Origin: Desulfocurvibacter africanus subsp. africanus DSM 2603 | Lineage (GTDB): Bacteria; Desulfobacterota; Desulfovibrionia; Desulfovibrionales; Desulfovibrionaceae | Assembly: GCF_000422545.1 (NCBI RefSeq) | Contig: NZ_AULZ01000002.1 | Coordinates: 62,001 to 126,000 of the forward strand | Direction: 5' to 3' | Length of the DNA stretch: 64,000 nucleotides | Part shown: positions 292 to 4,156 of the stretch, in pieces | Position numbering within the stretch: the stretch's first letter is position 1 | Layout: every line of letters starts with the position of its first letter | Notes under the pieces: generated by a model | The model's database searches: none | What the model was told of the DNA's origin: nothing | The model's input: only the letters and a program-made list of their open reading frames with translations | Position numbers and translations under genes: made by a program

Positions 292-468
292 GGGACTTTA
301 GCATGCAAGCTTTGTGCACGTCCGCATGGCACCATCTGCGGATAGAAGGTGATTCGCTACCAGACCTGCCTGAGCTACCAAGCCGGACTTGAGGCTATCC
401 TTAGCTGGCCCAAGACTGGGGAAGTCTGCTATGCAAGCCCATCAATCTCATCAAGGAGGACGATCGCC

Positions 469-633
469 ATGGATCATCCACTGGCTTTGGGCCTGGCCGC
501 ATTGGCCGGGGTGCTGACCTTCGCGGCACTGGTGCTTGGGCTGCGCAAACGCTGCATCCCCTGAGTCTTGCTCTACGGCTCCCTGGGCGTGGGAGCTCTC
601 GTTTATTATCTGCTCAGCAAATGGCTGTACTGA
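469..633 (+). CDS. Candidate small membrane selenoprotein with C-x-x-U motif (in-frame UGA at 562-564)
   Basis: A strong AAGGAGGA ribosome binding site (453-460) lies 8 nt before ATG 469. The frame gives 31 codons, then TGA at 562-564, then 22 more sense codons in the same frame to TGA 631-633. Read through as selenocysteine, the product is 54 residues: a hydrophobic helix (about 5-25), a basic turn R26-K-R28, the redox-like motif C29-I-P-U32, and a second hydrophobic helix (33-49) ending K-W-L-Y. The part after the UGA is membrane-like and would be odd as untranslated DNA. A 7-bp hairpin with a G-rich loop (577-597) stands 21-23 nt after the UGA, inside the known bacterial SECIS window. The same window contains a much clearer Sec gene (2864-4156), so the host decodes Sec. 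Not a family I recognise. The alternative is a 31-residue protein or a nonsense-mutated gene. Confidence 0.6.
577..597 (+). promoter_or_regulatory. Candidate bacterial SECIS hairpin (small membrane protein)
   Basis: GGCTCCC (577-583) pairs with GGGAGCT (591-597), 7 bp with one G-U, closing the loop TGGGCGT. The loop guanines lie 21-23 nt after the UGA at 562-564, in the 16-37 nt window known for bacterial SECIS elements. The loop is not the canonical GGUC, so SelB recognition is only inferred. Confidence 0.5.
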
Positions 634-2360: not shown

Positions 2361-2840
2361 ATGGACGAGAAGAGAAAGGAATTTCTGCGCACCAAGGTCA
2401 TGCCCTTTCATGCCGCCATGTGCGCCCTGCTCAGGATAATGGCCAAGAACAAGACCAGCCCCCAACCTGGCCAGAAACCGCCGATCCTGGCTCAATGCGC
2501 ATTCGACACCGAGGCCTACTCCATCCGTTTCATCTGCCGTGGCAAAGGCATCCGGCCCTTCCTGGCCATCATGGATAGGCCCTGGCCGCACAAGGTCTAC
2601 CTTGGTCGGCTCATGCGCGACGGCAATGTCCATTTGTTCGAGGACGGGCTCAAGGTGTTCTTCAACTTCCTCCTGCAGGAGGAGGTTCTGGATGTCTTCA
2701 TCAGGGATTTGGAAAAGGCCGTCATCGAGATGGCCCTGGCCATGCGCCGGCGCTGTACCCTGAAGGAAGAGCAGGAAAAGGCGTCCGACGGGAGCTGTGC
2801 TACGTGTCAGTCCCGCCAGGCTCCGGAGATAATACACTGA
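2361..2840 (+). CDS. Conserved-looking protein of unknown function, between PocR and Fe-S genes
   Basis: 159 residues, ATG 2361 with TGAGGAGG 7 nt upstream. I do not recognise the family. It is soluble, mixed alpha/beta, with no signal peptide or membrane helix. It has a helical N-terminus, a strand-rich centre (about 40-90), a long helix (about 115-135, E-M-A-L-A-M-R-R-R) and a C-terminal C-A-T-C pair that could bind a metal. It sits 28 nt after the PocR gene and 23 nt before the Fe-S selenoprotein gene, so one transcript is likely. Confidence 0.75.
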   Translation: MDEKRKEFLRTKVMPFHAAMCALLRIMAKNKTSPQPGQKPPILAQCAFDTEAYSIRFICRGKGIRPFLAIMDRPWPHKVYLGRLMRDGNVHLFEDGLKVFFNFLLQEEVLDVFIRDLEKAVIEMALAMRRRCTLKEEQEKASDGSCATCQSRQAPEIIH

Positions 2841-2863
2841 ACCCGCAACACAAGGAGCGAGAT

Positions 2864-4156
2864 ATGGCAGACGCTGTAGTGCTCGACCGCGTGGAGCACC
2901 CGTTCCTGGACAAGGTCATGACCTTGGTCCCGGAGGGTGGCCACCTGACGCAGTGCTTCACCTGCGGAGCCTGCGCCTCGGGGTGCCCGGCCACGGGCCT
3001 TGAGGGCATGGATCCGCGCAAGTTCCTGCGCATGCTGGCCTTCGGCCTGGAGAAGCAGGCCCTGGAGAATCCGTGGATATGGATGTGCACCATGTGCCGG
3101 CGTTGCGTGCACGCCTGTCCCATGGGCGTGGACATCCCGCAGATGATCTACTACGCGCGGCAGACCTGGCCCAGGGACAAGCGGCCCAAGGGCATCATCG
3201 GCTCCTGCGATCAGGCCCTGCGTACAGAGGGCGGTAGCGCCATGGGCGCGAGCAGCGAGGACTTCCAGTTCGTCATCGAGGATGTGCTGGCCGAGGTGCG
3301 CGAGGCGGACCCGCGCTTCAAGGATCTTGAAGCGCCCATCAACAAGCCCGGCGCCAAGTTCTTCCTCAATCAGAACTCCCGCGAGCCGGTTACCGAGCCC
3401 GACGAGATGGTTCCATTGTGGAAGATACTGCATCTGGCAGGCGCGGATTGGACCTATGCAACCACGGGCTGGGCCGCGGAGAACTACTGCATGTTCGCGG
3501 CCGACGATGAGGCCTGGGAAAGCATCGTGCGCAAAAAGGTCAAGGGCGTGGAGGACCTTGGTGCAAAGATCTGGCTCAACACCGAGTGAGGCCACGAATT
3601 TTACGCAGTCCGGTCCGGACTGCAAAAGTTCAACATCAAGCCCAATTTCGAACTCGATACGATCATCCGTTGGTATGCCCTCTGGATTCGCGAAGGCAAG
3701 CTCAAGCCCAGCTCCGATTGGAACAAGGACCTGAAGATCAAGTTCACGGTGCAGGACCCCTGTCAGCTCGTGCGCAAATCCCTGGGCGACCCCATCGCCG
3801 AGGACCTGCGCTTCGTGGTCAAGGCCGTGGTGGGCGCGGATAACTTCGTGGACATGTGGCCCAACAAGTCGAACAACTACTGCTGCGGCGGCGGTGGCGG
3901 TTTCCTCCAGTCAGGCTACGCCGACGCGCGCAGGCAGTACGGCAAGGTCAAGCTCGACCAGATCCTGGCCACCAAGGCGCAGTACTGCATAACGCCCTGC
4001 CATAACTGCCATTCCCAGGTTCATGACTTGGCCGAGCACTACAAGGCTCCGTACCACACCGTGCATTTGTGGACGCTGTTGGCATTGTCGTTGGGCGTGC
4101 TCGGCGAGAATGAGCGATCCTACCTGGGACCCGAGTTGGCCGAGGTCGGCCTCTAA
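2864..4156 (+). CDS. HdrD-like Fe-S oxidoreductase, selenoprotein (Sec UGA at 3587-3589)
   Basis: Start ATG 2864 with AAGGAGCG upstream; an earlier in-frame GTG (2804) lies within the preceding gene. The frame meets TGA at 3587-3589 and continues without further stop to 4156, giving 430 residues with Sec at 242. Domains: two 4Fe-4S motifs (C31-F-T-C34-G-A-C37-x3-C41 and C75-x2-C78-x2-C81-x3-C85), a first CCG-type domain in which the expected E-C-G-H Cys is the UGA codon (T-E-U-G-H-E-F-Y), and a complete second CCG domain (C300, C340-C341-G, C379-H-N-C382). This is the fused HdrC/HdrB layout of HdrD and GlpC-type proteins, which pass electrons to disulfides, quinones or menaquinone partners. 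No membrane helix is seen; the protein is cytoplasmic or peripheral. Automated calling would split it at the UGA. Partner enzymes are not in the window apart from the PocR and unknown genes upstream. Confidence 0.9.
3605..3623 (+). promoter_or_regulatory. Bacterial SECIS element of the Fe-S selenoprotein
   Basis: GCAGTCC (3605-3611) pairs perfectly with GGACTGC (3617-3623) around the loop GGTCC. The apical GGUC matches the SelB-binding loop of the E. coli fdhF SECIS, and its first G lies 23 nt after the UGA (3587-3589). The hairpin is coding at the same time. Confidence 0.88.

Follow-up and report, generated by a model that had tools for sequence, protein, structure and literature searches.

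A probable unnamed selenoprotein family of small C-x-P-U membrane proteins in Desulfocurvibacter africanus and other bacteria

Introduction

All known selenoproteins seem to have cysteine (Cys) homologues (PMC12013277). One of them, glycine reductase selenoprotein A (GrdA), was earlier thought to be without such homologues, but they have since been reported (PMC12013277). The finder deep-Sep may miss selenoproteins that lack Cys homologues; in the genome of Salidesulfovibrio onnuriiensis IOR2 it reported ten known selenoproteins and no new ones (PMC12013277).

Several described families resemble the protein reported here in their motif. The C-x-x-U families SELENOW-like, AhpD-like, GrdA and DUF1858 (Table 1 of PMC13188914) have selenocysteine (Sec, U) as the second residue of the pair, and their UGA is accompanied by a bacterial SECIS. 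A Sec form of the putative mercuric transport protein MerT (PF02411), with a C/S-x-x-U motif, is also listed (PMC13188914). Here we analysed a stretch of 64,000 nucleotides of the Desulfocurvibacter africanus subsp. africanus DSM 2603 genome (the window; all coordinates are those of the window unless a contig is named), and found a locus which shares the C-x-x-U arrangement, the UGA and the SECIS with these families. Unlike them, its predicted product is a 54-residue membrane hairpin for which no Cys counterpart was found and whose sequence could not be related to any curated model.

Results

The gene and its product

The features of the locus are as follows, with the basis of each in brackets.

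453..459, + strand: Shine-Dalgarno sequence AAGGAGG, 9 nt upstream of the ATG (sequence)
469..633, + strand: probable selenoprotein gene, 54 residues (translation with TGA as U; homologues at about 140 loci)
475..540, + strand: predicted transmembrane helix 1, residues 3-24 (AlphaFold2)
553..564, + strand: C-x-P-U motif, Cys29, Pro31 and Sec32 (alignments A1 and A2)
556..627, + strand: predicted transmembrane helix 2, residues 30-53 (AlphaFold2)
562..564, + strand: UGA, probably read as Sec (TGA in every confident homologue; coding constraint beyond it)
577..597, + strand: bacterial SECIS-type hairpin (fold; family-wide compensatory pairs; synonymous control)
631..633, + strand: true stop codon, TGA (stop identity varies among homologues)

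An earlier reading of the sequence alone had proposed a new small membrane selenoprotein here, with a strong ribosome site followed by 31 codons, a UGA and 22 codons up to a second stop. The ribosome site is present, and sequence and translation gave exactly this frame, from the ATG at 469 through the TGA at 562-564 to the stop at 631-633. With TGA translated as U, the product is MDHPLALGLAALAGVLTFAALVLGLRKRCIP-U-VLLYGSLGVGALVYYLLSKWLY. That gene callers would miss the full gene was also foreseen, and a standard caller indeed closes the ORF at UGA 562-564.

The gene, which is unannotated, stands alone in the window, 4 nt from the end of a convergent gene (638-1384, − strand), which encodes a metallo-beta-lactamase-fold protein with distant likeness to AHL lactonases. 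In four Desulfobacterota MAGs (L188, L202, L213 and L231), a metallo-beta-lactamase-fold gene lies on the same strand as the selenoprotein gene, 6-14 nt downstream of it.

Comparison with known families

No model in Pfam or NCBIfam (June 2026) scored over its curated cut-off. The best E-values, 0.0041 in Pfam and 0.0086 in NCBIfam, were scattered over unrelated membrane models. A sequence search of the PDB gave no match, and the single match of a Foldseek search against the PDB was meaningless (E 8.2). A 2026 review tabulates 119 prokaryotic selenoprotein families and subfamilies, and its descriptions include no two-helix protein with C-x-P-U (PMC13188914). The claim that no named family is like this one agrees with the model searches and, by description, with the tabulated families.

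Homologues and their distribution

Homologues were found at about 140 distinct loci (the total after duplicates were removed) in Desulfovibrionales, Desulfobulbales, other Desulfobacterota, one Myxococcota MAG and a few Clostridia-type MAGs. A six-frame readthrough search that counted stops placed TGA-bearing homologues in roughly 45-50 of the 288 genomes of the same family; in one Pseudodesulfovibrio-type genus (g37), 32 of 36 genomes had a homologue. Wider samples showed them in several further families of the order and the phylum. We also scanned one genome per species (84,980 species) with a degenerate pattern in which TGA, TGC and TGT were all allowed. It matched at 98 places, 94 of which score as Sec members. 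These belong to Desulfovibrionales, to Desulfobulbales (Desulfobulbus, Desulfogranum, Desulforhopalus, Desulfurivibrio and Candidatus Electrothrix), to the Myxococcota MAG (L191) and to Clostridiales or Syntrophomonadaceae MAGs (L150, L211 and L215). A scan of viral contigs gave no match.

In alignment A2, which was built from profile searches independent of the search pattern and excludes the Cys-less copies L097 and L132, C29, Sec32 and G42 are invariant. The perfect conservation of C, P, Y, G40 and G42 in alignment A4 was partly imposed by the search pattern. Three members, L097 (NMSU), L132 (DISU) and L242 (VSPU), have lost the Cys while keeping Sec and the hairpin sequence, so the Cys-Sec pair is not needed in every member.

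The members from the three Clostridia-type MAGs have only 36-38 residues, with CPPU and one predicted membrane helix; their ribosome sites are good, the same hairpin is present, and they are among the shortest selenoprotein candidates. One genome (G336) holds three copies, L094, L097 and L132, of which the latter two no longer have the Cys and the Pro of C-x-P-U and have acquired a C-terminal tail, with the UGA and hairpin retained. Degenerate tandem copies or fragments were seen in L107 (around 7580) and in L098 (after the main gene), one with Q replacing Sec and one with CPPU in a short frame.

Evidence that the UGA is read through

All of the roughly 140 loci have TGA as the internal codon and none has TAA or TAG, while the terminal stops of the homologues are mixed. 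Confident homologues carry a single in-frame TGA at this same codon, whether they come from the family, the order, the phylum or the species-wide scan. The frame downstream of the UGA proved to be conserved, and 185 pairs were compared for coding constraint. Differences at the three codon positions were distributed as 28/19/52% before the UGA and 29/17/54% after it, whereas beyond the final stop they were flat (33/33/33%). The post-UGA frame measures 19-25 codons in nearly all members.

A G-loop hairpin had been predicted 21-23 nt after the UGA, and the loop Gs lie at exactly these distances. The hairpin of the window has a 7-bp stem (577-583/591-597) and a 7-nt loop (UGGGCGU, 584-590), with 19 nt from the UGA to the loop. 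Published bSECIS limits are a loop of 3-9 nt with a G within its first two positions, a stem of 4-16 bp, a spacing of 16-37 nt and an MFE of at most −7.5 (PMC13188914), and this hairpin falls within them. Judged on the window sequence by itself, this fold (−15.1 kcal/mol) does not reach significance (z −1.08; 31 of 200 shuffles were as good). Across the family, in most members a stem at about +16 to +22 pairs with +27 to +33 (U of the UGA being 0), and the apical loops contain G (AGGU, GGGC, UGGGA or similar). Compensatory pairs occur at +21/+28 (A-T in 34 of 60, G-C in 25 of 60) and at +17/+32 (C-G, T-A and A-T). When codons were resampled for the same protein, the real sequences had lower folding energy (mean z −1.76, Wilcoxon p 2e-23, n=139). 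Members of the Pseudodesulfovibrio type tend to fold another hairpin slightly further on, with a GGG-containing loop. Comparative computation across homologues therefore identifies this element as a SECIS.

The host has the machinery for Sec decoding, as the earlier reading expected. Its genome contains selA (C11:10927), selB (C11:14026), selD (C2:245108), which itself has a TGA, and a tRNA-Sec gene (C15:91515, 86 bits). SelB also scored over the cut-off in all four non-Desulfobacterota hosts tested, and it was not found over the cut-off in the fragmented gene-bearing genomes G175, G242 and G248. A second Sec gene claimed for the window is real: an in-frame TGA at 3587-3589 lies in NTE-U-GHEF. 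The gene (2804-4156, + strand) encodes an Fe-S oxidoreductase-type protein, a hairpin of −14.0 kcal/mol follows the TGA, and the sequence matches a known selenoprotein motif, 'Fe-S oxidoreductase-like, UGH' (Table 1 of PMC13188914).

By these comparisons, UGA 562-564 is read through, in a real gene. We weighed two other readings of this codon. The UGA could be a real stop, as a standard gene caller takes it, leaving a 31-residue peptide, with the second half either a remnant or an independent frame. We rejected this, and give it hardly any credence, because the invariant TGA, the equal coding constraint on both sides of it, the steady length of the frame beyond it and the covariation of the SECIS all contradict it. 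It is also very improbable that suppression inserts a different residue, for instance Trp or Cys, at the UGA. What speaks for such suppression is that the comparisons demonstrate readthrough, with the identity of the inserted residue addressed indirectly; set against it are the Sec machinery of the host, a bacterial SECIS at the standard spacing and the finding of no confident homologue with a sense codon at the UGA position. Taken together, the comparative evidence makes 469-633 almost certainly a selenoprotein gene of a so far unnamed family, as the sequence-only reading had proposed.

Absence of Cys homologues

Alternation of Cys and Sec at codon 32, which had been expected of a true selenoprotein, was looked for in the homologues and was not seen. 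Such Cys homologues usually corroborate a bacterial selenoprotein gene but do not define it. No Cys homologue was found among the 84,980 species of the pattern scan. Its four TGC or TGT matches (L154, L160, L179 and L224) scored 12-21 bits and are unrelated chance matches. Profile searches of the family, order and phylum samples of Desulfobacterota gave no Cys homologue either, and the first broad-search profile carried Cys at the Sec column and so favoured Cys homologues. None was found in 237 genomes of the phylum of L191 (Myxococcota), in 63 genomes of the class of L215 or in 391 genomes of the class of L150. Weak matches from G029, G215 and others fell in long open frames and were discarded as belonging to unrelated longer proteins.

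This lack does not refute the selenoprotein, because the codon is invariantly TGA where the terminal stop varies, constraint crosses the UGA and the SECIS covaries. Rather, the missing Cys homologues are an unusual property of the family. A very distant Cys relative, undetectable by a 54-residue profile, is possible.

Predicted structure and gene neighbours

The AlphaFold2 model (75-sequence alignment) has a mean pLDDT of 70.6 and a pTM of only 0.36. In this model, helix 2 has Cys29 as its cap and Sec32 in its first turn. The short loop between the helices holds a mean of 2.3 K+R, versus 0.6 and 0.8 at the two ends of the protein. According to the positive-inside rule, a positively charged loop faces the cytoplasm. 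The inferred topology would thus probably place C-x-P-U on the cytoplasmic side.

The gene typA is the immediate upstream neighbour at 57 loci (median 33 nt), and the neighbours at other loci are mtnA, NUDIX, mazG, dnaX or comF-like genes. No common partner gene was found across clades; the neighbours differ by clade and point to no substrate. At about 19 loci of the Pseudodesulfovibrio type (including L115, L119, L122, L129, L137 and L223), a two-helix protein of 60-75 residues ending in GRTGWP is encoded directly upstream. NCBIfam has no Pfam-like model for it. The GRTGWP protein of L119/L035 bears a weak resemblance to the selenoprotein and has S-I-P-K where the latter has C-x-P-U.

Discussion

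Our proposal is that SelB and tRNA-Sec would decode UGA 562-564 as Sec with the aid of the hairpin at 577-597, giving a 54-residue two-helix membrane hairpin. Its C-x-P-U would lie at the N-terminal end of helix 2, beside the positively charged loop expected to face the cytoplasm. Cys29 and Sec32 would most likely cycle between selenolate/thiol and selenenyl-sulfide, and may transfer electrons between thiol carriers of the cytoplasm and a substrate that is lipophilic or bound to the membrane; candidates are a protein disulfide, a peroxide or sulfane sulfur. The placement of the motif resembles that in thioredoxin-type C-x-P-C and C-x-P-U sites, which likewise have a helix N-cap Cys, the second chalcogen in the first turn and Pro between them. 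In the window protein, unlike those sites, the motif helix is a membrane helix, and the thioredoxin fold is absent: the two-helix model is without strands and had no significant fold match.

From the motif and its placement, a membrane thiol/selenol oxidoreductase is the most likely role, and we favour it to a moderate degree. Metal handling and a subunit role are its main rivals. The selenolate might instead be a metal or metalloid ligand in a small Hg, Se or As membrane carrier like MerT or MerF. Mer membrane proteins are small, the listed Sec form of MerT is likewise a membrane protein with a Cys-x-x-Sec pair (PMC13188914), and retention of Sec where Cys is lost fits a ligand or one-centre role. 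Yet in 23 members no Pfam match at E <= 1 was to PF02411, mer genes are absent from the recurrent neighbours of the family loci, and each chain offers a single soft ligand pair, so we consider a carrier unlikely. Somewhat less doubtful is a small subunit, structural or regulatory, of some larger complex in the membrane, in which Sec would serve for attachment or redox sensing and not in a stand-alone enzyme. A protein of 54 residues with two helices only would suit such a part, as would the conserved small residues G40 and G42 of helix 2, which suit helix packing, and the GRTGWP protein encoded next to it in Pseudodesulfovibrio-type genomes; the absence of any one partner gene common to the clades argues against it.

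We lean slightly towards an obligate selenoprotein family, one that includes the single-helix members of 36-38 residues, in which Sec is never replaced by Cys and the chemistry at the membrane surface would need a selenolate. GrdA, which has Cys homologues and shows no sequence relation to the window family, differs in this respect. One clear family member (L007/L125) is in genome G228, which appears to be that of Salidesulfovibrio onnuriiensis IOR2, the genome scanned by deep-Sep. That no Cys homologue was found accounts for the family being missed by existing finders, as published methods depend on such homologues.

Current finders either require Cys homologues or take known families as their starting point, and they therefore cannot see a family in which Cys is never used. 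Should the generalisation about Cys homologues break down here, selenoproteomes would be undercounted, chiefly in their small membrane proteins, and this family would offer a direct test of the chemistry that makes selenium irreplaceable.
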